DNA from: Niabella sp.
GTDB lineage: Bacteria; Bacteroidota; Bacteroidia; Chitinophagales; Chitinophagaceae
Direction: 5' to 3'
Length of the DNA: 64,000 nucleotides
Assembly: GCA_027493055.1 (NCBI GenBank)
Contig: JAPUDO010000063.1
Span: forward strand, 1 to 64,000
The notes under the pieces were generated by a model that saw only the letters and a program-made list of their open reading frames with translations, did not search any database and was not told the DNA's origin. Positions 1,211-12,781 of the stretch are shown piece after piece (within the stretch, counting starts at the first letter, position 1; each line of letters opens with the position of its first letter). The position numbers and the translations under genes were made by a program.

Positions 1211-1352
1211 GATTCCATCACCTGCCATTTTAGATGGGTCATAGGCTGAAAGTGGTGCTTTTCATAAATTAGCCTGTGTAATATCGGTTGCTTGATTACT
1301 CAAAAATAGGGATACAGCCTATAGACCAGCAACGGGAAAATAACGGTTTTTA

Positions 1353-1370
1353 TACGGGAATTTTCCCGTA
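1353..1370. promoter_or_regulatory. Perfect 18-base palindrome, candidate operator of the signalling operon
   Basis: TACGGGAATTTTCCCGTA is a perfect palindrome (8-base arms, TT centre). It touches the TTGG -33-like element of the promoter for the gene at 1420. A further direct ACGGGAA copy lies about 20 bases upstream (near 1332-1338) and an inverted ATTCCC copy at about 1379-1384. No T-tract follows, so it is not a standard terminator. A repressor or response-regulator site, perhaps for the regulator encoded at 3127, is the simplest reading; this is inference. Confidence 0.5.
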
Positions 1371-1399
1371 TTGGTAATATTCCCACTCTCCTAATTTTG
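1371..1399 (+). promoter_or_regulatory. Bacteroidota-type promoter for the signalling operon
   Basis: TTGG at 1371-1374 and TAATTTTG at 1392-1399 are separated by 17 bases. They match the Bacteroidota -33 (TTTG/TTG) and -7 (TAnnTTTG) elements. The ATG at 1420 lies 20 bases beyond the -7 box, giving a short leader. This is the best promoter match I found in the left 13 kb. Confidence 0.55.
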
Positions 1400-1419
1400 T
1401 TTATATAAAATCAACACGT

Positions 1420-1680
1420 ATGGACATAGCCAAAAACAATCAATGTAAAATGGAATTTTATTTTACAAGAGAGAAAATTGAGACACTTTTAAAAAAGAAT
1501 CCCACTGCCAAAGGAATTATTATCAGTCAGGAAATTAAGGTAAGGCAAACTGCTGATAAAGAAACAATCAATGTGGTAGAGATCAAAGCTACCGCTGATA
1601 ATGGTGGGCAAAAAATGAGAGCTATGTCCGTTCAAACCCTTGAAAGTGTAGATGGATGCCCCAGCCCTCCCGGTTGTTAA
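1420..1680 (+). CDS. Small hypothetical protein with C-terminal CPSPPGC tail
   Basis: The 86-residue product has no signal peptide or membrane segment, so it is presumably cytosolic. It has a compact domain (FTREKIETLLKK, then KGIIISQ and INVVEIKA, about residues 14-60) and ends in DGCPSPPGC, with two cysteines in a Cys-Pro/Pro-rich tail. The arrangement 'ST-K/R-x-I/L-E ... K-G ... N-x-V-x-x-A ... Cys tail' recurs in the soluble part of the product at 3802, so the two are probably distant relatives. It is the first gene of a run that continues with a seven-helix membrane protein and a histidine kinase. I do not recognise a named family. It could be a signal, ligand, adaptor or peptide precursor for that sensor pair; nothing in the sequence decides. 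Confidence 0.7.
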   Translation: MDIAKNNQCKMEFYFTREKIETLLKKNPTAKGIIISQEIKVRQTADKETINVVEIKATADNGGQKMRAMSVQTLESVDGCPSPPGC

Positions 1681-1725
1681 TTGAGCGTAGCATAAAAATA
1701 TTGATAGCAGGAAAACTTATAATCC

Positions 1726-2382
1726 GTGAAATTACTTACAGAGCTTTTAAATATTCTGGACAGCATCGGACCCGCTTTTGCAGGCACCTTTCTTTTGTAT
1801 AATAAAAGGCATCTTTCCAGTGAAATGGTGCTGATCACTATTTTCTGCCTTGTTCAATTTGTCTGTAATTCTATTGCTACAGCCCTGGACTGGGCTGATG
1901 CAAATAATTACTGGGTATATAAAATAAATTTTACAGCAAGCTTTCTTGTTCTACTTTATTTATTCGCAAAAAAGCTGGTACATTTAAAGCCTGCTACACT
2001 TTATACCTTACTGGCTTTTTACCTGGCAATTTCACTGTACCTGATGAAAAACGGTGATGGCGTTTCTCACTTCAATAGTTTAAGCGCAGCTATTGAAAGC
2101 ATTATTATTGTTAGTCTTTGCCTCTACTTTTTTTACTCAAAGCTTATTAATACTTCCGAAGAAATAAGCATCCCCGAAACAAGTATTTTTTGGTGCGTGG
2201 TAGGAATTTTCACCTATTACGCCGGGGCATTTTTTATATTTATATCTTATAGGTACCTGATCCATACAGATATCAGTACAGTTGCTGTGCTATGGCGTTT
2301 TCATAATATTTTACTGTTTATCTGCAGCCTGTACATAAGTTATGGAGTTCTATGCAAAAACTATCGAACGATATTATTGTAA
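1726..2382 (+). CDS. Seven-helix membrane protein paired with a histidine kinase
   Basis: The 218-residue protein is hydrophobic throughout, with about seven predicted membrane segments (near 9-25, 34-54, 68-82, 90-107, 117-140, 152-176 and 186-207). There is no signal peptide and no recognisable enzymatic motif. I take the GTG at 1726 as start because the next in-frame ATG (about 1825) would remove the first helix. Its 3' end overlaps the following kinase gene by 31 bases, which implies coupled translation. The kinase has only one membrane segment and no input domain, so this protein is the likely sensor half of a split receptor. A second protein of the same size and topology is encoded at 4334 in front of a second kinase. 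The function is inferred from context alone. Confidence 0.75.
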   Translation: MKLLTELLNILDSIGPAFAGTFLLYNKRHLSSEMVLITIFCLVQFVCNSIATALDWADANNYWVYKINFTASFLVLLYLFAKKLVHLKPATLYTLLAFYLAISLYLMKNGDGVSHFNSLSAAIESIIIVSLCLYFFYSKLINTSEEISIPETSIFWCVVGIFTYYAGAFFIFISYRYLIHTDISTVAVLWRFHNILLFICSLYISYGVLCKNYRTILL

Positions 2383-3155
2383 TACTTGGTGCTTCTGTAT
2401 TCCTGTTATTGATCACTTTATTTATTGTTATTCTGCTCATGGCTTATAAACGCAGGGATTACAAACATTTAAAGGAAAAGATGCTGTTAGAAGAAGATTT
2501 TAATAACCAGCTGCTACGCTCACAAATAGAAGTGCAGGAGCAAACATTTTCCCAGATTGGTAAAGAGCTGCATGATAATGTGGGGCAGTTGCTGAGCACT
2601 TCACGCATGCTGATGGGGCTTGCCGAACGACATCTCAAAACACCACCGGATACACTGATCACAGCCAATGCCACATTAGGCAAAGCCATTAATGAAATAA
2701 GGTCCCTGTCCAAATCTCTTGATAAAGAATGGCTGTCTCAATTTAACCTGATTGAAAATCTTAAAGCAGAAGTGATACGGGTAAATGGCTCCGGTGTGAT
2801 CAATGCATCGCTCCATATTCAATATGAGCCCTCTCTCCCTTCATCCAAACGGATCATTCTTTTCAGGATTATGCAGGAAGCTATACAAAATGCCATCAAG
2901 CATAGCGGCTGCAACAACCTCAACATCAGTATTACTAAAAAGGAGGAGCATATTGAAATCAATATATCTGATGATGGTACCGGAATGAAACCCGGGATCA
3001 TGAAAAAAGGAATGGGTTTGGACAATATGTTATACCGGGTAAAGCTATTAGGTGGCCATATTGTATATAAATCTTCTGAGAAAGGTACAAGAGTTACTAT
3101 ATTTATACCCGATAAACCAGAAAAAGATGAAAACCAGGATAGCCCTCGTAGATGA
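2352..3155 (+). CDS. Sensor histidine kinase, HisKA_3 (NarL/DesK-like) type
   Basis: The 267-residue product has one N-terminal membrane helix (about 8-31), a short linker (35-60), the HisKA_3 dimerisation segment with phospho-acceptor His74 in KELHDNVGQL, and a C-terminal HATPase_c domain. The ATPase motifs are visible as EAIQNAIKHSG (N box), SDDGTGM (G1) and KGMGLDNM (G2). There is no extracytoplasmic sensor domain, so input presumably comes from the seven-helix protein whose gene overlaps it. The downstream response regulator gene overlaps this one by 29 bases, which makes the two a cognate pair almost by definition. It would autophosphorylate at the inner membrane and pass the phosphate to Asp57 of that regulator. 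Confidence 0.9.
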   Translation: MQKLSNDIIVILGASVFLLLITLFIVILLMAYKRRDYKHLKEKMLLEEDFNNQLLRSQIEVQEQTFSQIGKELHDNVGQLLSTSRMLMGLAERHLKTPPDTLITANATLGKAINEIRSLSKSLDKEWLSQFNLIENLKAEVIRVNGSGVINASLHIQYEPSLPSSKRIILFRIMQEAIQNAIKHSGCNNLNISITKKEEHIEINISDDGTGMKPGIMKKGMGLDNMLYRVKLLGGHIVYKSSEKGTRVTIFIPDKPEKDENQDSPRR

Positions 3156-3768
3156 CCATCAGCTTTTTTTAAAATCTCTTAGCCTAATGCTGGAAAGCTT
3201 TAAAGTTTACCAGGTTGTGCTGGAAGCATCAAACGGGAAAGATCTGCAGGAAAAGCTCGGAAAAATAAAAGAGCTGCCTGAAATTATACTGATAGATGTA
3301 AATATGCCTATAATGAACGGTATTGAAACTGCAAAATGGCTATCTGAAAACTATCCCCAGATAAAACCTGTGGCTCTTTCTATGAATGCTGACGATAATG
3401 CCATCATTTCTATGTTTAAGGCCGGATGCTGCGGATACCTGCTTAAAGATACACACCCTAATGAGCTTGAAAAGGCTCTGGATGAAATTAACAGGAAAGG
3501 CTTCTATAATGCAGATGCAGGGAACATCAGCTTCAGGCGTATTTTAATGAAAGTAGATGAGAAGGAAGAGATACAGATTTCACCCAAGGAAATGATCTTC
3601 CTGCAATACGCATGCAGCGACCTTACCTATAAGCAAATTGCTACTGAAATGCATCTGAGCGAGCGAACCATAGACGGATATCGTGAATCTTTATTCAGAA
3701 AATTTAATGTGCTAAGCCGCGTTGGACTTTGCCTTGAAGCACTGAGAAAAGAATTTGTAAAATTGTAA
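3127..3768 (+). CDS. LuxR/NarL-type response regulator
   Basis: The 213-residue protein begins MKTRIALVDDHQLFLKS. I chose the ATG at 3127 because it starts exactly at the receiver domain; an upstream in-frame ATG would only add residues read from the kinase's other frame. The receiver (1-125) has the acidic pair Asp9/Asp10, phospho-acceptor Asp57 in LIDVNMP, and the conserved Lys in GYLLKDTHP. The C-terminal HTH of the LuxR class (about 148-208) contains SPKEMIFLQYACSDLTYKQI and LSERTIDGYRESLF. It is probably a transcription factor activated by the kinase at 2352 and, since no second regulator is present, perhaps also by the kinase at 4998. The palindrome at 1353 is a plausible target. This is autoregulation by inference only. 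Confidence 0.9.
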   Translation: MKTRIALVDDHQLFLKSLSLMLESFKVYQVVLEASNGKDLQEKLGKIKELPEIILIDVNMPIMNGIETAKWLSENYPQIKPVALSMNADDNAIISMFKAGCCGYLLKDTHPNELEKALDEINRKGFYNADAGNISFRRILMKVDEKEEIQISPKEMIFLQYACSDLTYKQIATEMHLSERTIDGYRESLFRKFNVLSRVGLCLEALRKEFVKL

Positions 3769-3801
3769 TCATATCTATTTTTATACTAAAACTTAAACAT
3801 T

Positions 3802-4344
3802 ATGGCAACTAACGAAACCTTCTCGGTAAAAAAAACACCTTTTTACCTGTTCCTTGTATTATTAGGCTTTTTGCTGTTTTATGTGTTTGATCTTGTAAGA
3901 AATAAGAGTAACGACAGAATCCCGGACATTCCTACAAAAGCCGGTCCGATACCAGAAAAAACGGCTAAGGAATACATAAACAATTATATTACCTCCCAGG
4001 ACTCGCTTGGTGATGCCTATAAATTAATTACCGAAAGCGGCGAAACATTGCGCGGATTCTGGCTGTCAAAAAAAACGCTGGAAAGTATCGATAGCATGAT
4101 AAAAAAAACAGATAAAGGCGCTGCTGTTGTGGGATATAGTATTTATTTTGGTAAAGTGAGCCCTTATTCAAAAGATAAAAGACAGGCGCTTAACCTTGTT
4201 GTAAGAGGTGCAGTTCCCGCTATAAAAGGAACTACCACTATGCAGAAAAGGAATAATGTAGCCGGCTACCCTCTTGGTGATATTATGGATGAAGGCGGTT
4301 ATTTTGACTCTATAGAGCCTTGCCCTGTAAATTGTGGAGATTAA
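3802..4344 (+). CDS. Single-pass membrane protein with C-terminal CPVNCGD tail
   Basis: The 180-residue product has a short N-terminus, one membrane helix (about 13-32) and then a soluble region. That region includes FWLSKKTLESIDSMIKK, GYSIYFGKV and LNLVVRGAVP, and the protein ends SIEPCPVNCGD. The segment from about residue 87 to 135 can be laid against residues 14-60 of the small protein at 1420 without large gaps, and both finish with a Cys-x-x-x-Cys type tail. I infer a shared domain, here carried on a membrane anchor. It lies 33 bases behind the regulator and overlaps the next membrane-protein gene by 11 bases, so it opens the second half of the operon. No named family is recognised. Confidence 0.7.
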   Translation: MATNETFSVKKTPFYLFLVLLGFLLFYVFDLVRNKSNDRIPDIPTKAGPIPEKTAKEYINNYITSQDSLGDAYKLITESGETLRGFWLSKKTLESIDSMIKKTDKGAAVVGYSIYFGKVSPYSKDKRQALNLVVRGAVPAIKGTTTMQKRNNVAGYPLGDIMDEGGYFDSIEPCPVNCGD

Positions 4345-5008
4345 GAGATTCTTTTTAGTTTTTATGTCAGGCAGATTTTTAATATATCTTATTATCTTAT
4401 TTATAATTATCCTTATCGGGCTATTTAATTTTAAAAAGTTAAATAGCCCTTTTAAGATTTTAACTGTATTTATCCTAATAACATTCATAAGCGAATCTTT
4501 AAGTCGTTTCTTTGCGAAAGAATACCGTAATAGCTCCCCGGTATATCCCGTTTATTTTTCCTTACAATACTTTTTTCTTACAGCATTCTACAGTTTTTAT
4601 CTCAAAAATAGCAGGACTATTATCGCATGGTCCTGGCCGGTAGTTCTTTTGATATTTTTTATCAATGCTGTTTTTTTTCAAACCGTCTGGCAATTCCCGT
4701 CAAATAATATACTTATATCATATCCTGTTTATGTGCTATGCTCGCTATTATTATTTAAAAATATGCTGCTTAAGATTGAGGAAGCGCCATTATTAAAGCA
4801 AGAGCTGTTCTGGTACAATACTTCCAGCCTGTTTTTGTATTTATTCACATTTTTTTGCTGGAGCTTTTTTAATATACTTGTAAGGAATAATAAAGTAGCT
4901 ACCTTAAATAGTATAATCTACTACCTGGTTATACAAAATTATATTATCACAGGTATTGCTATTTATATGAACAGCCGGCGTAATAAAAAAGTGACAAATG
5001 CAGGATAA
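4334..5008 (+). CDS. Second seven-helix membrane protein paired with a histidine kinase
   Basis: The 224-residue protein is strongly hydrophobic, with about seven membrane segments (near 13-33, 40-58, 70-90, 98-117, 123-145, 161-185 and 190-212) and a basic C-terminal tail (RRNKK). The GTG at 4334 overlaps the end of the preceding gene by 11 bases; an ATG at 4364 is the alternative and would keep the first helix. It overlaps the next kinase gene by 11 bases. Size, topology and gene order copy the protein at 1726, although the sequences have little obvious identity. I infer that it is the input subunit of the second kinase. No enzymatic motif is visible. Confidence 0.72.
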   Translation: MEIKRFFLVFMSGRFLIYLIILFIIILIGLFNFKKLNSPFKILTVFILITFISESLSRFFAKEYRNSSPVYPVYFSLQYFFLTAFYSFYLKNSRTIIAWSWPVVLLIFFINAVFFQTVWQFPSNNILISYPVYVLCSLLLFKNMLLKIEEAPLLKQELFWYNTSSLFLYLFTFFCWSFFNILVRNNKVATLNSIIYYLVIQNYIITGIAIYMNSRRNKKVTNAG

Positions 5009-5777
5009 TATTTCCGAGATATATGTTTTTATTATAACGGGTATCCTGTTGTTTGGCATACTTGCAGGCTTTATTATCTTCTTTGTTATTACTTATTATA
5101 AAAAGCAGCAGGAAAATACTAAAGAGAAACATTTACTGCAAACAAAATTTAATGAGGACCTGCTGACCAGTACTATTGAAATACAGGAAAAAGCTTTTGA
5201 TGACATCAGCAGGGAATTACATGATAATATCGGGCAGCAGTTATCAGCCGCATCCATTTATCTTAATCTTTCGCTGCAGGAGAAAGATAACGCAGGTAAT
5301 ACAAAGCTTCAGTCGTGCAGGGATATTATTACCGACAGCCTGCAGGACCTGAGGCATATATCCCAGACTTTGTTGGGTGAAAAAATAAGAACAACAGGTA
5401 TTATTCATTCTGTTAAGCTGGAAATAGACAAAATAAATAAACTGGGTATATGTACAGGAACACTCAAAACAACAGATATGCCGGTTTCCCTCGATCCTAA
5501 AAAGGAAATTATTTTATTCAGGATTATACAGGAAGCTATTAGCAATGCTACCAAACATGCGCCAGGCTGCAATATTGAAATCTCCATAGACCCGCAGCCC
5601 GATAGCCTGAAGGTATCTGTCAAAGATAATGGCAAAGGCTTCCTGCCGGAAAGCATTCAGGAATCGGGTATTGGTTTGATGAATATGAAAAGCAGGGCAA
5701 AAACCATTGGTGCAAGCTATGAGCTTAAAAGTGCTGAAGGAACAGGCACAACAATTGACATAAGCCTGGGCTATTAA
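4998..5777 (+). CDS. Second sensor histidine kinase, HisKA_3 type
   Basis: The 259-residue product parallels the kinase at 2352: one membrane helix (about 8-31), linker, HisKA_3 with His75 in SRELHDNIGQQL, then HATPase_c with EAISNATKHAPG (N box), VKDNGKGFLP (G1) and SGIGLMNMKSRA (G2). It lacks a sensor domain of its own. No response regulator follows; the next gene encodes an exported protein. The kinase may therefore phosphorylate the regulator encoded at 3127 or act on one elsewhere in the genome. It probably arose by duplication of the upstream membrane-protein/kinase pair followed by divergence. Catalytic motifs are complete. Confidence 0.88.
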   Translation: MQDNISEIYVFIITGILLFGILAGFIIFFVITYYKKQQENTKEKHLLQTKFNEDLLTSTIEIQEKAFDDISRELHDNIGQQLSAASIYLNLSLQEKDNAGNTKLQSCRDIITDSLQDLRHISQTLLGEKIRTTGIIHSVKLEIDKINKLGICTGTLKTTDMPVSLDPKKEIILFRIIQEAISNATKHAPGCNIEISIDPQPDSLKVSVKDNGKGFLPESIQESGIGLMNMKSRAKTIGASYELKSAEGTGTTIDISLGY

Positions 5778-5833: not shown

Positions 5834-6547
5834 ATGACGGTGCGTTTCAAAATTAAATATCCGGTAACCCTTTGTGCATTCCTGTTTTTTTTCAGCAAGA
5901 CATTTGCTCAGCAGGTTGATTTTTCTGTTGATTCCAACTCTTATTTGCCACAGGTATTCTACAAAACATTTAACCGGGATTTACCTATATATAATGGCAG
6001 GCTTTTCAGCGGCTATCCCTCGGGCATCAAGGGTACGGCATTCTTCAACGATATACAAAAGGAAATAGGTACAGCTGTTTATGATGGTATAGCATATAAG
6101 AATCTGCCATTGATCTACGATGTCAATACCGATGAGTTGATTGTACGCAGTGATGATAACCTGCCCTATGTCCTGTTCAGTGACAGGGTATCGGCATTTA
6201 CTTTCCGCGATTTTACTTTTATAAGAATTGACAATGGTATCCTTCCTAAAGGGTTTTACCAGGTACTGGAGCGGGGTACGCTGACATTTCTTTGTAAAAG
6301 GCAGAAAATAATAAAGGAATCCATAGTAGGCATGAGCCTTGAACGCGATTTCCTGGTTACAGATAAATTTTATGTATTGAAAGATAACAAATTTTATCCT
6401 GTCACATCCAGGAAAACATTTTATAAAACAATTAAAGAAAAAAAGCAGTTGGTTGCAAAAGCGCTAAGGTCCAGGAATATAAAGTTTAAGAACGATCCGG
6501 AGGCTTTTATAACAACAGGCATTCACATTTACAACCAGCAACGATAA
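5834..6547 (+). CDS. Exported hypothetical protein, first gene of a TonB-receptor operon
   Basis: The 237-residue protein has a Sec signal peptide (about 1-25, ending KTFAQ). The mature part is rich in aromatic residues and beta-strand-like segments (IYNGRLFSGY, GIAYKNLPLIYD, LPKGFYQVLERG). A basic C-terminal third contains KTIKEKKQLVAKAL. I do not recognise a named domain. The stop codon is immediately followed by the start codon of the TonB-dependent receptor at 6548, with no spacer, so they are surely co-transcribed. It probably works in the periplasm or at the outer membrane together with the receptor. The spacer to the kinase gene upstream is only 56 bases, so read-through from the signalling operon is possible. 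Confidence 0.7.
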   Translation: MTVRFKIKYPVTLCAFLFFFSKTFAQQVDFSVDSNSYLPQVFYKTFNRDLPIYNGRLFSGYPSGIKGTAFFNDIQKEIGTAVYDGIAYKNLPLIYDVNTDELIVRSDDNLPYVLFSDRVSAFTFRDFTFIRIDNGILPKGFYQVLERGTLTFLCKRQKIIKESIVGMSLERDFLVTDKFYVLKDNKFYPVTSRKTFYKTIKEKKQLVAKALRSRNIKFKNDPEAFITTGIHIYNQQR

Positions 6548-9304
6548 ATGCGAGCAGCACTATACCTTTTCCTATCCGTACTTTTGGCAATATCCTGCCA
6601 GAACTATTGCAGTGCCCAAAATCTACCGGCTGTTTCGGGCAGGTATGAACAAACAGCAGCCGAAGACTTTTTTAAGGACCTGGAAAAACAAACCGGGTTC
6701 TACTTTTATTACGATACCACTCAGCTCGATTCTTTATATATAAATATACTTATAGAAAAAGAGCCGCTTGATGTGGCATTAGGCAAAGCGCTCCAGCCTA
6801 CCCTGCTAAAATCAGGCATAGATGCCGCTGAAAAAAAAGTGTATATTACCAGCAGGATGGCTATGCTTACAGCTTTACCGGCTGGTTTTTATACTAAAAC
6901 AGGTATTACAGGAGCAACTGCTGATATTACAGACTACGGTTTTGATAGCAAAGCCCGGAAAGCTATTGCCGAAAATAAAATACATGAAATTGGTAATAAA
7001 AATACCCCCTATAAACCTACCGCAATTTTGAGCGGGATAGTAAGAAGTGCCCGTACGGGGGAACCGTTTCCAAATGTTTCAATCCTGGTAGATGATACCT
7101 ATTCTGTTATCTCAGATACTTACGGAAACTACTCTATCAATATGCCGCCGGGCAAACACGTGCTGCATATCATTGGCTTTGGTATAAGAGAAACCCGTTT
7201 AACTCTGCAGGTTTATGCTGACGGCAGAATGGATATAGACTTACAGGAGCAGATACCAACACTTAAAGAGGTAGTAGTATCATCTGTACGTACAAGAAAT
7301 GTAAGGAACCTCCAGATGGGAGTTTCGCGCTTATCTATTGATGAAATAAAAAGAGTGCCTACTGTTTTTGGTGAAACAGATATTTTGAGGGTGATCACTA
7401 CTTTACCGGGTGTAAAAACAGTAGGTGAAGCCAGTACAGGCTTCAATGTAAGAGGGGGATCGGCTGATCAAAACCTTATACTGTTTAACGAAAATACGAT
7501 TTACAATCCTTCGCATTTTTTTGGGATGTTCTCAGCTTTCAATCCAGAGATTGTAAAAGACGTGGAATTATATAAGAGCTCTGTTCCGGCAAAATACGGT
7601 GGAAGGCTTTCATCAGTTTTAGATATCAACAGCCGGGAAGGAAATAAAAAGAAAATATCCGGTTCGGCCGGTATAGGGCTTGTCACCAGCCGGTTACAGC
7701 TCGAAGGGCCAATCGTAAAAGACAAAACCTCTTTCATTTTTGGAGGCCGTACCACTTATGCCAACTGGCTTATAGACCTGTTACCGGATGAGTATGACAA
7801 AAGCAGGGCTTCGTTCCAGGATCTCAATCTGGGTATTACCCATAATATAGACAGTAATAACAATATCTACTTCAACGGGTACTACAGCCGCGATCAGTTC
7901 AAGCTGAATCAGGATACTACTTATGGCTATGACAACCGTAACTTTTCTTTAAAATGGCAACACCGTTTCTCAAAAAGGTTGCAGGGCGAAATAATAGGTG
8001 GTTACGATTATTATAAATATGATATCAGGAGCGGAGAAAATTATGTAAATGCCTTTAAATTATTCTTTGATATCAGGCAGTACTTTGGAAAGATCAATTT
8101 TGTATATTATCACAGCCAGAAGCATGGCTTTGATTTTGGATTGAATACTGTAGCCTATAAATTGCGGCCCGGCACTTTTGAACCGCTCAATTCCAATTCA
8201 CTGGTAAGGCCTGACACTGTTAATACAGAAAGGGCACTGGAAAATGCTTTATATGTTTCCCACCGCTTCACTCCTACCAATAAACTGTCTTTTACAACCG
8301 GTTTGCGATATTCGCTCTACTCCTTCCTGGGACCTCAATCCGTTAGCTATTATGCCGCAGGCCAGCCTATGACTGATGATACCCGGCAAAGCACCATACA
8401 ATATGCCAAAGGAAAATTTATTAATAATTATCACGGACCAGAAATAAGGTTTACCTTACGATATGCCTTTACGCCTGATTTTTCAGTAAAGGCGGGTTAC
8501 AATACACAAAGGCAGTACATACACCTGCTGTCTAATACAACAGCCATCTCACCCACTGATATATGGAAACTAAGCGATCCTAATATCAGACCGCAACAAG
8601 GTGACCAGATATCTCTGGGCTTGTATAAAAATTTTCGTTCCAATACTATTGAAACATCTGTTGAAGCTTATTATAAAAATATCAAAGACTATCTTGATTA
8701 TAAGCCGGGCGCTAACTTATTCATGAATCATAATATTGAAACAGATGTTATAAGAACAAAAGGTAAAGCTTATGGTATTGAGCTGTTAATCAAAAAGCCT
8801 GTAGGCAAGCTTAACGGCTGGATAGGCTACACCTATTCCCGTATCCTGTTAAGATCAGCCGAAACAGGTTTGGGCAGTATGGTAAATGGTGGTGACTTTT
8901 ACCCTGCTAATTATGACAAGCCGCATGATTTTATCCTTGCCGGAAATTTTCGTATAAACCATCGCTTTAGCCTTTCCTTAAATTCAGCTTACAGCACCGG
9001 ACGGCCTATAACCTATCCTATAGGCAAGTTTTATTATGAAGGTGCGGAACGTGTTTTATATTCCGACAGAAATCAATACCGTATCCCCGATTATTACCGT
9101 ACAGATTTTGCAATGAACATAGATGGAAACCATAAAGTACATCAAAAAACACATAATTCATGGACCATTGGTGTGTACAATATGCTGGGCAGGCGAAATC
9201 CCTATTCTGTGTACTTTGCCACCGAAGGCGGACGTGTGAACGGGTACCAGCTATCTATTTTCGGAAGCGCCATACCTTTTATCAATTATAATATCCGTTT
9301 TTAA
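6548..9304 (+). CDS. TonB-dependent outer-membrane receptor with STN and CarboxypepD_reg-like domains
   Basis: The 918-residue protein has a signal peptide (about 1-23). It continues with an STN-like segment (about 35-85: FFKDLEKQTGFYFYYDTTQL), a carboxypeptidase-regulatory-like domain (about 155-230: ILSGIVRSARTGEPFPNVSI) and a plug (about 240-360: LPGVKTVGEASTGFNVRGGS, DVELYKSSVPAKYGGRLSSV). A long beta-barrel ends in an aromatic residue (NYNIRF). It is an active transporter of an unknown ligand across the outer membrane, powered by TonB/ExbBD. The STN domain often couples receptors to a FecR anti-sigma factor, but none is nearby. The DUF4249 lipoprotein follows after one base. That combination is common in Bacteroidota and differs from SusC/SusD systems. 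Confidence 0.9.
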   Translation: MRAALYLFLSVLLAISCQNYCSAQNLPAVSGRYEQTAAEDFFKDLEKQTGFYFYYDTTQLDSLYINILIEKEPLDVALGKALQPTLLKSGIDAAEKKVYITSRMAMLTALPAGFYTKTGITGATADITDYGFDSKARKAIAENKIHEIGNKNTPYKPTAILSGIVRSARTGEPFPNVSILVDDTYSVISDTYGNYSINMPPGKHVLHIIGFGIRETRLTLQVYADGRMDIDLQEQIPTLKEVVVSSVRTRNVRNLQMGVSRLSIDEIKRVPTVFGETDILRVITTLPGVKTVGEASTGFNVRGGSADQNLILFNENTIYNPSHFFGMFSAFNPEIVKDVELYKSSVPAKYGGRLSSVLDINSREGNKKKISGSAGIGLVTSRLQLEGPIVKDKTSFIFGGRTTYANWLIDLLPDEYDKSRASFQDLNLGITHNIDSNNNIYFNGYYSRDQFKLNQDTTYGYDNRNFSLKWQHRFSKRLQGEIIGGYDYYKYDIRSGENYVNAFKLFFDIRQYFGKINFVYYHSQKHGFDFGLNTVAYKLRPGTFEPLNSNSLVRPDTVNTERALENALYVSHRFTPTNKLSFTTGLRYSLYSFLGPQSVSYYAAGQPMTDDTRQSTIQYAKGKFINNYHGPEIRFTLRYAFTPDFSVKAGYNTQRQYIHLLSNTTAISPTDIWKLSDPNIRPQQGDQISLGLYKNFRSNTIETSVEAYYKNIKDYLDYKPGANLFMNHNIETDVIRTKGKAYGIELLIKKPVGKLNGWIGYTYSRILLRSAETGLGSMVNGGDFYPANYDKPHDFILAGNFRINHRFSLSLNSAYSTGRPITYPIGKFYYEGAERVLYSDRNQYRIPDYYRTDFAMNIDGNHKVHQKTHNSWTIGVYNMLGRRNPYSVYFATEGGRVNGYQLSIFGSAIPFINYNIRF

Positions 9305-9305
9305 A

Positions 9306-10445
9306 ATGTCTAAAATATTTAATATAATCTGGATATTCCTGCTGCCGGCTTTTTTTACCGGCTGTAAAGACAAATATTTCCCTGAAATACCATCTACAGA
9401 AACCAATTTCCTGGTTGTGGAAGGAGTTTTAAATGCAGGCAATGAACCTACTACCGTAAGAATTACAAGAACGTATGACATAAACGGGAACATAGGCAAT
9501 TTACGTGGAGAGACCAATGCCGTTGTAACGGTTGAAGGCAACGACAATTCAAGCAGGCCATTAACTATGGCTGATGCCGGTACTTACCAAAGCAGCAACC
9601 TGGCTTTATCAGCAAATAATGAATACAGGTTAAGGATCAAAACCATGGATGGCAAAGAATACCTTTCCAGCTATGTAAAAGTGAAGACTTCTCCCGAGAT
9701 TGACAGCGTCAGCTATAAGCCGCAGGATGGCAACATGCAGCTATACGTGAATACGCACGACCCGGCAAATAATACCCGCTACTATAAATGGAGCTATGAA
9801 GAAACCTGGGAAATCAATAGCTATTATTACTCCACGATTATTTATGATGCCAATGAACCCAAATTAATAAGAGAAAGAGAACCATCGGAGTATATATTCC
9901 GTTGCTGGAAATATAGTAAATCAGGTAAGATACTCTTTGGAAGCTCTGCTCAACTTACCTCCGACGTAATCTTTGAACAACCAATAAACAGGATACCCGG
10001 TGGTGATGAGCGTTTATCAGTAAGATACAGCATTCTTTTAAAACAATATGCCCTGGATAAGGATGCTTACGAATTCTTTGACCTGATGAAGAAGAATACA
10101 GAATCCTTAGGTAGTATTTTTGATGCGCAACCTTCTGAAATACGGGGAAATATTAAATGTGTTAATAATCCTGACGAAATAGTGATTGGCTATGTATCAG
10201 CGAGCACTGTTACCCAAAAACGAATATTTATCAACCGTCCTTCGGGATGGAATTTCAGACAGCTGTGCGATACCAGGCTGATAACACCTGACAGTGTACG
10301 TTATTATATGGCTAAGGGCGATTTCATTCCTATAGTGGAAGAACCGAGAATGGGTTCTCTTATTTCCGATTATTTGTCGTCTACTCCTGTATGTGTGGAC
10401 TGCAGGGAAAGAGGGGGCAATCTTCAGAAGCCTGCTTATTGGTAA
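9306..10445 (+). CDS. DUF4249 family lipoprotein
   Basis: The 379-residue product has a lipoprotein signal (FFTGCKDKYFPEIP, acylated Cys at about residue 20). The DUF4249 layout follows: an early FLVVEGVLNAG strand and R-I-T-R-T-Y-D segment, an immunoglobulin-like region with YRLRIKTMDGKEYLSSYVKV, and a C-terminal part with several conserved Cys residues (VCVDCRERGG). It is predicted to sit in the outer membrane and to cooperate with the TonB-dependent receptor just upstream, in the way SusD works with SusC, although the fold is different. The ligand is unknown. The gene begins one base after the receptor's stop codon and is followed by the MG2 protein gene. Confidence 0.88.
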   Translation: MSKIFNIIWIFLLPAFFTGCKDKYFPEIPSTETNFLVVEGVLNAGNEPTTVRITRTYDINGNIGNLRGETNAVVTVEGNDNSSRPLTMADAGTYQSSNLALSANNEYRLRIKTMDGKEYLSSYVKVKTSPEIDSVSYKPQDGNMQLYVNTHDPANNTRYYKWSYEETWEINSYYYSTIIYDANEPKLIREREPSEYIFRCWKYSKSGKILFGSSAQLTSDVIFEQPINRIPGGDERLSVRYSILLKQYALDKDAYEFFDLMKKNTESLGSIFDAQPSEIRGNIKCVNNPDEIVIGYVSASTVTQKRIFINRPSGWNFRQLCDTRLITPDSVRYYMAKGDFIPIVEEPRMGSLISDYLSSTPVCVDCRERGGNLQKPAYW

Positions 10446-10465
10446 ACAAAATTATTGAAAAGAGC

Positions 10466-12781
10466 ATGTTGAATAAATGGACATACATAAAACACGGGTT
10501 GAGTAGTATAGTTTTATACATACTTGTAGCGGTATGTATGGAAAGCAGGGCACAAACAACTTCATCCTTCCAGCCGGTTAAAGAAGAAAGCGTATCTGTA
10601 CATACAGATAAGCCCTCCTACCTGGCTGGTGAAATAATATGGTTTAAAGCTTTTTTGAAAGCCGGAACCGATGCTGTTACTACCAATTTCAACAGCAGTA
10701 TACTATATGTTGAATTATTAAATAACGAAGGAACCCCGGTTGCACAGGCAAAAACACACCTTACCAATGGTTCTGGTGACGGAAGTTTCTATTTACCTTT
10801 AAACCTTTCTACGGGAGTGTACACACTTACTGCCTATAGTACAAAACTCAAAAACGCCGGCTCCGGATACTTCTTCTACAAAAAAATCACGGTCATCAAT
10901 ACTATCAGGAACAGCGCCTCAACGGATTCTTTGTCAAATGGAGCTGCTGTTGTTAATTTCTTTCCTGAAAGCGGTGCCATGCTGCACAATGTGCCGGCAA
11001 AAATAGGCCTGCAGGTTACAGAAACCCGCACAAACAGGCCTCTTGAAAATATTAACGGGTATATTATCGAAAATAAAAAAGATACAGTTGCCAGCTTTCT
11101 AACAGGCCGGCTGGGCCTTGGACAATTCACTTTTACACCTAAAGCAGACAGGCAATATGAATGTATCTTAAAATACCCGGGACCAACCGGCATTGTCCAA
11201 ACACTTCCTTCAGTTAAAAATACAGGTTACCACTTGTCGGTAACGGAAGAAACAGACAAATACAGGATAAATATAGCATCCGCCCAGACTGCGTCCGGCA
11301 CAGTTTCGCTTTTAGTTAAGCCGGTAAACGGTTTAACTGTTTCAAACAACTTCGTGATTCATTCTGGTAAGCAAAGTATTGATATAGAAAAGTCGGGGCT
11401 AGAGACCGGGCTCAGCTACGTGATACTGTTAGATAACAACAATCAAACAGTAGCCGAACGTTTAATTTTCAAACCCGGACGTACCGCAATCCAAAAGCTG
11501 CAGCTTACTACCGATAAAACGGTTTACTCACCCCGGGAGAAAATGAATATCAGTATTTCCGGCAATAACGCATCCTCAATCATTAAAGGTTCTGTTTCTG
11601 TTAGTTATTCCCCCGCAAATGGTGTCACTCCCTGTGAAGACCTGGCCAGCTTATTAAGCAATGGTTCCTATAATGCATCTGAAATTGAAAATTTACTTTT
11701 GGTATATGGTCCGGATAATTTTACTATAGCCTCCAAGGCTGGTAATCTTGTACCTGAGTACGATGGCCATATAGTAACTGCCCGGGTTACCAGCCTGTGG
11801 AACGGGCAACCTGCACCGGGCATAAGATGTGCGCTTTCTATACCATCTGCCATTCCTTTTGGCTTTTATTTAGGCACCAGCGATACTGCCGGTATTGTAA
11901 GGTTTAATGTAAAAAAATACTATGGCTCCGGTAATGTCATTGTAAAAACTTTATCTGAAAAAAATTCTGCAGATTATAAGGTGGAACTGATGGATCCGTT
12001 TGCCGGTTTTACAGCCCGCAATGCTTCTGCTAACAAGGTATGGCTGAATGTAGCAGACAGTTCCGATCTTTTAAGAAGAAGTATTGCAATGCAGGTAACC
12101 AACAGCTATTATCCCGAACAGATCAATATATTTCAGGCACCGGCTTTTAAAGACACATTGCCCTTTTTTGGTAAAGCGGAGTTTAGTTACCTTTTGGACG
12201 ATTATAAGCGCTTCTCCACCATGGAAGAAGTGTTGAGGGAATATGTAACCAATATTAATGTTTCGATCCGTAATTCAAAACTCAGGATGACCATTTTTGA
12301 CGAAAAATATGGCAATATTTATGATAACAATATACTGGTATTGCTTGATGGAGTACCGCTTTCAGACTATAACAGCATTTTCAGCTATGATCCTTTAAAA
12401 GTGAAAAAGCTGGACGTAGTGCCCAGAAGGTACCTTCTGGGAAATGCTGTGTTTTCAGGTATTGCCAGCTTTGAAACTTATGATTCCAGGTTTGACGCTT
12501 TTGATCTTGACCCCGCAACTGTTTCGGCAGCGTATGACGGGCTGCAGCTAAACAGGGAATTTTTCCTTCCCCGGTATGACAACAATTATAAAGGAGACCC
12601 AAGGCTTCCCGACTATAGAACTACGCTGCTATGGAAGCCAGATATTACATTAAAAGGGAACAGCGCAAATATCATTGAAGCATCCTCTTCCGATTTTAAA
12701 GGAAGATATAAAGTGGTGTTTAACGGCATGTCTGAAGAAGGTACCCCATTTTACAGCGAGACTACTTTTGAAATAAAATGA
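10466..12781 (+). CDS. Exported MG2 (macroglobulin-like) / plug-domain protein
   Basis: The 771-residue product starts at the ATG at 10466, which gives a clean signal peptide (KWTYIKHGLSSIVLYIL to SRAQ); an upstream in-frame start would overlap the DUF4249 gene. The N-terminal MG2-like domain is plain: VSVHTDKPSYLAGEIIWFKA, then YVELLNNEGTPVAQ and YTLTAYSTK. Further beta-sandwich domains follow. Around residues 580-640 there is a short stretch resembling a TonB plug (MEEVLREYV, ILVLLDGVPLSDYN, VKKLDVVPRRYLLG). These proteins accompany TonB receptors in Bacteroidota and are thought to sit in the periplasm or outer membrane, but their role is unclear. The gene ends four bases from the convergent cutC gene. 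Confidence 0.8.
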   Translation: MLNKWTYIKHGLSSIVLYILVAVCMESRAQTTSSFQPVKEESVSVHTDKPSYLAGEIIWFKAFLKAGTDAVTTNFNSSILYVELLNNEGTPVAQAKTHLTNGSGDGSFYLPLNLSTGVYTLTAYSTKLKNAGSGYFFYKKITVINTIRNSASTDSLSNGAAVVNFFPESGAMLHNVPAKIGLQVTETRTNRPLENINGYIIENKKDTVASFLTGRLGLGQFTFTPKADRQYECILKYPGPTGIVQTLPSVKNTGYHLSVTEETDKYRINIASAQTASGTVSLLVKPVNGLTVSNNFVIHSGKQSIDIEKSGLETGLSYVILLDNNNQTVAERLIFKPGRTAIQKLQLTTDKTVYSPREKMNISISGNNASSIIKGSVSVSYSPANGVTPCEDLASLLSNGSYNASEIENLLLVYGPDNFTIASKAGNLVPEYDGHIVTARVTSLWNGQPAPGIRCALSIPSAIPFGFYLGTSDTAGIVRFNVKKYYGSGNVIVKTLSEKNSADYKVELMDPFAGFTARNASANKVWLNVADSSDLLRRSIAMQVTNSYYPEQINIFQAPAFKDTLPFFGKAEFSYLLDDYKRFSTMEEVLREYVTNINVSIRNSKLRMTIFDEKYGNIYDNNILVLLDGVPLSDYNSIFSYDPLKVKKLDVVPRRYLLGNAVFSGIASFETYDSRFDAFDLDPATVSAAYDGLQLNREFFLPRYDNNYKGDPRLPDYRTTLLWKPDITLKGNSANIIEASSSDFKGRYKVVFNGMSEEGTPFYSETTFEIK

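Follow-up and report, generated by a model that had tools for sequence, protein, structure and literature searches.

A recurring small protein, seven-helix protein, kinase and regulator gene set in Bacteroidota, and its doubled form in Niabella

The window analysed here is a whole stretch of 64,000 nucleotides from Niabella sp. (NCBI GenBank assembly GCA_027493055.1, contig JAPUDO010000063.1, positions 1 to 64,000 of the forward strand). Near its beginning, seven genes follow one another on one strand in the order S1-T1-K1-RR-S2-T2-K2, where S is a small protein, T a seven-helix membrane protein, K a histidine kinase and RR a response regulator; the quartet S-T-K-RR is directly adjacent on that strand. 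By open reading frame (ORF) calling in this Niabella-type genome, neighbouring frames overlap by 31, 29, 11 and 11 bases or leave gaps of 45 and 33 bases. A first-pass annotation, made from the letters of the DNA, had proposed seven packed genes in this order, and the ORF coordinates, overlaps and gaps confirm it. Such a gene order is far from chance. The genes and the features in front of them are the following.

1331-1346, plus strand: degenerate copy of the candidate operator, AACGGGAAAATAACGG, 22 nt upstream of the main palindrome; read from sequence
1352-1371, no strand assigned: perfect palindrome ATACGGGAATTTTCCCGTAT, candidate RR operator about 50 bases before S1
1371-1399, plus strand: candidate Bacteroidota-type promoter, with TTG at 1371-1373 and TAATTTTG at 1392-1399; read from sequence
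1420-1680, plus strand: S1, small protein of 86 aa with no export signal seen and the tail GCPSPPGC; matched by the S profile, of which it is a row
1726-2382, plus strand: T1, GTG start, 218 aa, seven-helix membrane protein predicted N-out/C-in
2352-3155, plus strand: K1, 267 aa, HisKA_3 kinase with one N-terminal transmembrane helix and no sensor domain; H-box HDNVGQ
3127-3768, plus strand: RR, NarL/LuxR-type response regulator (REC and GerE), 213 aa from the ATG at 3127
3802-4344, plus strand: S2, 180 aa, with an N-terminal membrane anchor and the tail PCPVNCGD; matched by the S profile, of which it is a row
4334-5008, plus strand: T2, GTG start, 224 aa, second seven-helix protein, 17% identical to T1
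4998-5777, plus strand: K2, 259 aa, second sensorless HisKA_3 kinase; H-box HDNIGQ

RR carries Response_reg (PF00072, 77.2 bits) and GerE (PF00196, 43.4 bits), both above cut-off in Pfam-A; the earliest in-frame start of its frame is a GTG at 3052, ahead of the ATG at 3127. Both kinases contain HisKA_3 (PF07730) and HATPase_c (PF02518) above the curated cut-offs and conserve the H-, N- and G-box residues. The hallmarks of a HisKA_3/NarL two-component system, i.e., HisKA_3 and HATPase domains in the kinase and REC and GerE domains in the regulator, are all present. A simple hydropathy count gives a single N-terminal transmembrane helix in K1 and in K2, and no domain was found before the dimerisation helix. 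Hydropathy and Pfam domains agree in this with the earlier description of both kinases as having one membrane helix and no sensor domain. S1, S2, T1 and T2 belong to no Pfam-A or NCBIfam family at cut-off, and nine S-like relatives and one T relative were matched in these libraries only far below the cut-offs.

The distribution of T among the kinases bears most directly on its role. All HisKA_3-type matches with E ≤1e-10 were collected in G000, G003, G020 and G044 (n = 66; G-numbers denote the genomes compared, G000 being the genome of the window, and L-numbers the loci compared), and kinases with a frame of ≤400 aa were counted as short. T adjoins 17 of the 20 short kinases vs. none of the 46 long ones (Fisher 4.5e-13), the cases not being independent because the four genomes share one family and two of them one genus. 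The three exceptions among the short kinases are a full S-T-K-RR set in G003 whose T was missed by the profile, a soluble PAS kinase and a kinase without a transmembrane helix in the cassette cluster L039. The same four genomes hold 19 T matches, 17 of which adjoin K; the remaining two are an orphan (G044:C8) and a T located some 1 kb past the kinase of a cassette (G044:C25). T accompanies the sensorless kinases and not the longer ones, and this is the strongest reason for which it is called their input module. The best reading of these sequence comparisons is that T would serve as a membrane input module detached from K.

The simple hydropathy count gives six transmembrane helices in T1 and in T2, and one in S2. 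Smoothed hydropathy over 130 aligned T sequences (T of 195–275 aa) shows seven stretches, and the positive-inside rule applied to the same alignment places the C-terminus inside and the N-terminus outside. An AlphaFold2 model of T1, built from a four-row alignment, has seven long helices at low confidence (pLDDT 61, pTM 0.58). The first rows of a Foldseek search with this model, largely G protein-coupled receptors and microbial rhodopsins (TM 0.4–0.5) with zinc transporters among them, were not used as homology, and a PDB profile search with T gave a best E of 3.9, which was discarded as chance. No His, Cys, Ser or Asp occurs among the T positions conserved in ≥45% of the 130 rows. The membrane protease of Agr-type peptide quorum sensing has conserved His and Cys residues. 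An AgrB-like protease role for T was rejected, as no His or Cys is found among its conserved positions. T is free-standing, with an open frame of ≤304 aa for every match listed at E ≤0.001. A T-profile match with E 0.15 within a kinase frame of 703 aa in the own genome was taken as chance and not as a fusion. Plasmid searches with the two T proteins and K1 gave no match.

Outside the window, the gene set is widespread. With T1 as the query, matches were found in 29 of 99 relatives. The T profile matched at least 98 of 117 genomes of the family and at least 61 of 296 genomes sampled across the phylum, these counts being lower bounds in which the first 25 or 10 candidates were scored per genome. 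The gene order was then read at loci L033–L195, which were picked by T or S matches and not by K, with identical stretches counted once. K lies directly downstream of T on the same strand for 114 of the 140 distinct T genes, and the T and K frames overlap in 88 of these 114 pairs, an upper estimate because ORFs were taken from the first start. Upstream of the 140 T genes, S was recognised by profile at 97 and some same-strand gene of <400 aa at 128. Forty further loci were read: the two other copies of the own genome, and 38 regions at phylum matches of the T profile outside the loci shown, picked by hand down the list. All but L160, where T could not be called, gave a T (39 loci); K is next in 35 and is followed by RR in 28; S is found by profile in 31 and by profile or a CP/PP tail in 35. 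The check on gene-order conservation in relatives therefore did not give the outcome that would count against the proposed system, and the quartet recurs in Bacteroidota. The double set of the window represents a local expansion of the single S-T-K-RR quartet, which is the widespread form.

Several variants of the arrangement were seen. G000 carries two further cassettes, each with its own RR: S-T-K-RR at C103:4831-7263 (L165) and T-K-RR with S at the contig end at C12:117401-119665 (L164). The L039 cluster (G044:C65) has two S-T-K sets, one HisKA_3 kinase without a transmembrane helix and two regulators, one set being without its own regulator. At L100, L113, L116, L129, L136 and L137, two or more T genes lie in tandem or flank a single S or kinase; from such loci, T may act as unlike pairs. 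In some Chitinophagaceae cassettes, a further T-like gene lies directly behind the regulator (L062, 4433-5092 on the minus strand; L046). Orphan T genes without a kinase occur behind other genes at L063/L214 (G044:C8) and L057/L083 (G059:C26). S2/T2 or T1 are split by frameshifts in three same-genus assemblies (L032/L035, L037, L038), which are assembly errors or pseudogenes.

The palindrome at 1352-1371 is conserved in front of S. The exact core TACGGGN6CCCGTA is present as one copy per genome in six of the seven same-genus genomes with T1, always upstream of S1, and in the seventh genome the palindrome position is taken by CCGGGAAAATTCCCGG. Outside the genus, the cluster of the window RR has three members, L041 (=G039), L056 (=G022) and L120. 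ACGGGN6CCCGT stands before S in the same tandem arrangement at L041 and L056, and L120 has a version with three mismatches. No locus among L032–L165 outside this RR cluster has the exact core. The rest of the upstream region has largely diverged around the palindrome, and a stretch similar to the degenerate copy is found at the same place in nine loci of three genera. Within the window, no second copy of the palindrome with ≤3 mismatches was found. As the exact core, in the six genomes that have it, is unique and stands before S1, RR is likely to control its own operon, and no sign of a wider regulon was seen. RR probably autoregulates its operon through the palindrome, and that it would do so by activation rather than repression is a guess. 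The candidate promoter at 1371-1399 is called by likeness to the Bacteroidota consensus; a scan for promoter and terminator consensus sequences remained at the shuffle level.

Palindromes were also sought before other RR clusters with at least five members. Nothing above shuffles was found in clusters 9 and 18. One RR cluster of 14 showed an AGTAA-type palindrome, with exact arms in three members, a number that shuffles also reach. In an RR clade other than that of the window (the group of L062 and L069–L096), an AGTAA/TTACT palindrome lies about 100–210 bases before S, and the exact AATAGTAAATTTACTATT occurs in L075 and L092. This pattern reached a shuffle P ≤0.05 at 7 of 15 loci tested, in a partly circular test, the pattern being derived from the same loci. 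At several loci of this group, a second NarL-type regulator is divergently oriented beyond the palindrome.

The second set (S2-T2-K2 or parts of it) stands behind RR in four of the seven genomes with T1 (G000, G003, G012 and G002) and is not found behind RR in G008, G006 and G001. It is intact in G000 and G003; its pieces are split in G012 and G002, assemblies that split other genes too. In G008 and G001, the gene directly behind RR is the one that stands behind K2 in G003 and G002. Set 2 is therefore seen as having been gained or lost there as a unit. In the window, the block 5834-12781 separates set 2 from this neighbour gene. A recent tandem duplication was rejected as the source of set 2, T1 and T2 being 17% identical and their nearest outside relatives being different. 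Outside the genus, T2 and K2 are closest to L130, a cassette of another family with its own RR. The best match of the L130 RR in G000 is the window RR (42%, next 33%) and in G003 the shared RR (44%, next 30%). K1 and K2 both keep HDNxGQ, the D-x-x-x-Q form of a phosphatase motif in HisKA_3 kinases, and either could therefore add phosphate to RR as well as remove it. It is likely, from these comparisons, that K1 and K2 converge on one RR. Alternatively, set 2 would be independent, with K2 signalling to another regulator or idle. The resemblance of K2 and T2 to a cassette that has its own RR speaks for this, as do the broken parts of set 2 in G002 and G012, where other genes are broken too. However, the genome contains no closer RR, and set 2 stands directly behind RR wherever it is carried, which makes such independence somewhat unlikely.

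The small protein S was followed with a profile to which S1, S2 and the C103 copy contribute rows; of 119 genomes of the class, it matched 23. Among the 30 S loci, T was found by profile at 25 and an unlabelled polytopic protein at 3 more (L178, L183, L189), with neither at 2 (L182, L186); each of the four S matches in the own genome adjoins T. Three features can be seen in the S alignments: a stretch prone to form a helix, the conserved block G-x-R-x-Y and a second stretch of hydrophobic residues. A PDB profile search with S had a best E of 0.1, which was discarded as chance. By a simple hydropathy rule, 85 of 112 S-like genes have no export signal, 19 have an anchor or signal peptide and 8 a lipobox; at least one of the export calls (L034, 101 aa) comes from a wrong start. 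The last 50 residues contain a Cys pair in 68 of the 112, one Cys in 9 and none in 35. This set omits upstream genes of <70 aa as well as those with neither a profile match nor a CP/PP tail, and so favours tails with these motifs. The proline-rich tail contains CPx1-4C in 60 of the 97 S with a profile match. The Cys tail, by which the small proteins had been described in the first-pass annotation, is thus not a defining feature, with 68 genes having a Cys pair and 35 no Cys at this end. S may be a ligand, adaptor or sensor, as suggested earlier, and it does form a genuine family associated with T; a single role as an extracellular ligand does not fit all S, because 85 of the 112 have no export signal. 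S would most likely be a stimulus-binding or feedback subunit of T, on whichever side of the membrane it lies. In one genus (L182 and L186; G463 and G502), double-S proteins, apparently secreted by their N-termini, have no T beside them.

Co-variation of the four parts was measured as distance correlations over 52 quartets in which all parts were of a minimum length, and over a non-redundant subset (n = 40). In the full set, the values are 0.40 for T-K given RR, 0.02 for T-RR given K, 0.82 for K-RR given T and 0.41 for S-T given K, which fits a chain S-T-K-RR. Of 200 half-samples, 196 gave a higher value for T-K given RR than for T-RR given K, and only 164 a higher value for S-T given K than for S-RR given T. 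The first of these differences is kept in the non-redundant subset (0.40 for T-K given RR, –0.03 for T-RR given K). Co-variation gives mild support to a T-K partnership and no clear support to an S-T one. Together with the kinase counts (17/20 vs. 0/46) and the overlapping frames, the T-K co-variation supports well, if indirectly, the earlier view of the seven-helix proteins as split input modules.

The main reading, to which a probability of about 0.72 is given, is a conserved S-T-K-RR cassette in which T is the input module of K, K acts on RR, RR controls its own operon and the same RR receives input from a second set. The order of the genes, its recurrence, the architecture of the kinases, the sequence families and the conserved palindrome are direct observations; we infer the contacts between T and K and between S and T, the flow of the signal, the binding of RR, the direction of the feedback and the sharing of RR. 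S would be a dedicated partner of T. A change in the T bundle would be passed to the membrane helix of K, since K has one short transmembrane helix and no sensor, and would set the balance of its kinase and phosphatase activities. K would phosphorylate RR, which would bind the palindrome upstream of S1 and control its own operon, with S as the first gene, giving feedback. In the Niabella of the window, the second set would feed the same RR.

Several results weigh against this reading. At the genus level, the distribution is patchy, with a strong T1 match in 7 of 17 genomes and a weak one in one more. T lacks an adjacent K at 26 of the 140 genes; these include tandem copies (e.g., L100, L113, L136), broken copies (L035, L037, L038), T behind a regulator (L046, L062), a case in which a small ORF intervenes (L134) and true orphans (L063, L083). 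An occasional T-K fusion would be expected for a split receptor, and none was seen among the matches listed. The low pLDDT of the T1 model is accompanied by the lack of any PDB match below E 0.001 in Foldseek. The AlphaFold2 model of S2 failed (pLDDT 44), although a helix and two strands are drawn at the conserved block. S varies in its predicted location, and one uniform role for it is doubtful. In the non-redundant quartets, S-RR given T (0.34) is higher than S-T given K (0.28), and the preference of T for the N-terminal membrane part of K, present in the 52, is lost in the 40 (0.26 vs. 0.35). Distance correlations are in any case weak evidence, because co-operonic genes share their history. 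As to a wider regulon, sites with one mismatch occur across the seven genomes at roughly the frequency of the control pattern.

A bolder form of the main reading would make the cassette a phylum-wide bacterial counterpart of receptor-ligand signalling, in which a separate N-out/C-in seven-helix receptor and a co-encoded protein ligand S drive a sensorless kinase in a self-inducing own-operon circuit, with cassettes stackable on a shared regulator. This extension is doubtful.

T could instead be a negative or accessory regulator, as LiaF is of LiaS, with K sensing the state of the envelope or membrane through its transmembrane helix and T and S damping or tuning it. K is indeed short, with one transmembrane helix and almost no outside part, as in intramembrane-sensing kinases; the operon is probably autoregulated, as is LiaFSR; and LiaS is among the NCBIfam matches below cut-off. 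On the other hand, the one-helix sensorless kinases of the four genomes come with T, as would be expected of an obligatory input, and T matches no Pfam or NCBIfam family. Neither of these two points is decisive, and an accessory T is considered rather improbable.

An autocrine circuit, in which S or its Pro/Cys-rich tail is a self-made signal sensed outside by T and amplified through RR by positive feedback, is distinctly improbable. It would agree with S being the first gene behind the palindrome, the own operon being the only clear predicted RR site, the frequent C-P-P-rich tails (CPx1-4C in 60/97) and the predicted N-out/C-in orientation of T. However, the 85 of 112 S without an export signal do not suit it, the quartet does not regularly include a transporter or protease, T has no conserved His, Cys or Ser suited to processing, and the exported S forms include anchored ones and lipoproteins. 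Very unlikely is S as the output, i.e., an effector and the main induced product of T and K sensing an outside factor: the predicted site at the own operon only, S as the sole non-signalling product of the quartet, the weak S-T co-variation in the non-redundant set and the secreted double-S proteins without T (L182, L186) would suit it, but S is tied to T at 25 to 28 of 30 loci and S-T given K is 0.41 in the full set.

Two other regions of the window were named by reading. Behind K2, the block 5834-12781 encodes a secreted protein, a TonB-dependent receptor, a DUF4249-like lipoprotein and a large secreted protein. The start of this block also lies behind K2 in N. hibiscisoli (L032), and not in G003 (L034). 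On the minus strand, positions 34802-57710 hold a large surface-polysaccharide cluster with glycosyltransferases, sugar epimerases, a flippase and export proteins.

Short kinases make up 20 of the 66 HisKA_3-type kinases in the four genomes, the one-helix ones being without a recognisable sensor. If T is the detached input module, this whole class of sensorless kinases gains its receptor. The unnamed families S and T would gain a role, and signal specificity would be open to study by cassette swapping. Related Niabella with one or two input sets on one regulator represent a natural experiment, for which the conserved candidate operator is a ready reporter.

The systems known so far share parts of this design. 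In UhpABC, the separate polytopic receptor UhpC drives the HisKA_3 kinase UhpB, which acts with the NarL-type regulator UhpA; UhpC is homologous to transporters, and UhpB also spans the membrane several times. With its separate membrane receptor, HisKA_3 kinase and NarL-family regulator, UhpABC is the nearest in its way of working. It differs in that T has no family match, K has one transmembrane helix and S has no counterpart. The UhpB equivalog model of NCBIfam is not reached by K1 (107.6 bits) or K2 (91.4 bits; cut-off 408), and T1 and T2 have no Pfam or NCBIfam match at cut-off that would make T a membrane partner from the MFS transporter family.

LiaFSR combines a membrane accessory protein, a short HisKA_3 kinase and a NarL-type regulator. 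LiaF is described as a negative regulator of LiaRS (PMC3543457, PMC7191749). Among short-kinase systems with a membrane accessory protein, LiaFSR is the nearest, the difference being that T matches no Pfam or NCBIfam family. K1 and K2 remain at 67.9 and 80 bits against the NCBIfam LiaS model (cut-off 450); neither S nor T has a Pfam or NCBIfam match at cut-off as a LiaF homologue, no direct comparison with LiaF having been made. MctRS provides the best NCBIfam matches of K1 (117.6 bits) and RR (101.7 bits), with K2 at 92.6 bits. These scores are far below the cut-offs of 700 and 300, and only the C-terminal part of the MctS model, from about position 203 of 457, is matched. Histidine kinases with a fused seven-helix input domain are represented by 7TMR-DISM and HisKA_7TM. 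They likewise join a seven-helix membrane input to a histidine kinase output, but T is a separate gene (≤304 aa among the matches listed) and matches none of those Pfam families.

No description of the S-T-K-RR gene set was found in Pfam-A, NCBIfam or the titles and opening lines of abstracts in the open-licence literature. Within these libraries and this part of the literature, the label of an undescribed system is upheld, as S and T belong to no family and no paper on the gene set appeared. As a variant without prior description in the sources searched, S-T-K-RR belongs with split-receptor systems such as UhpABC.

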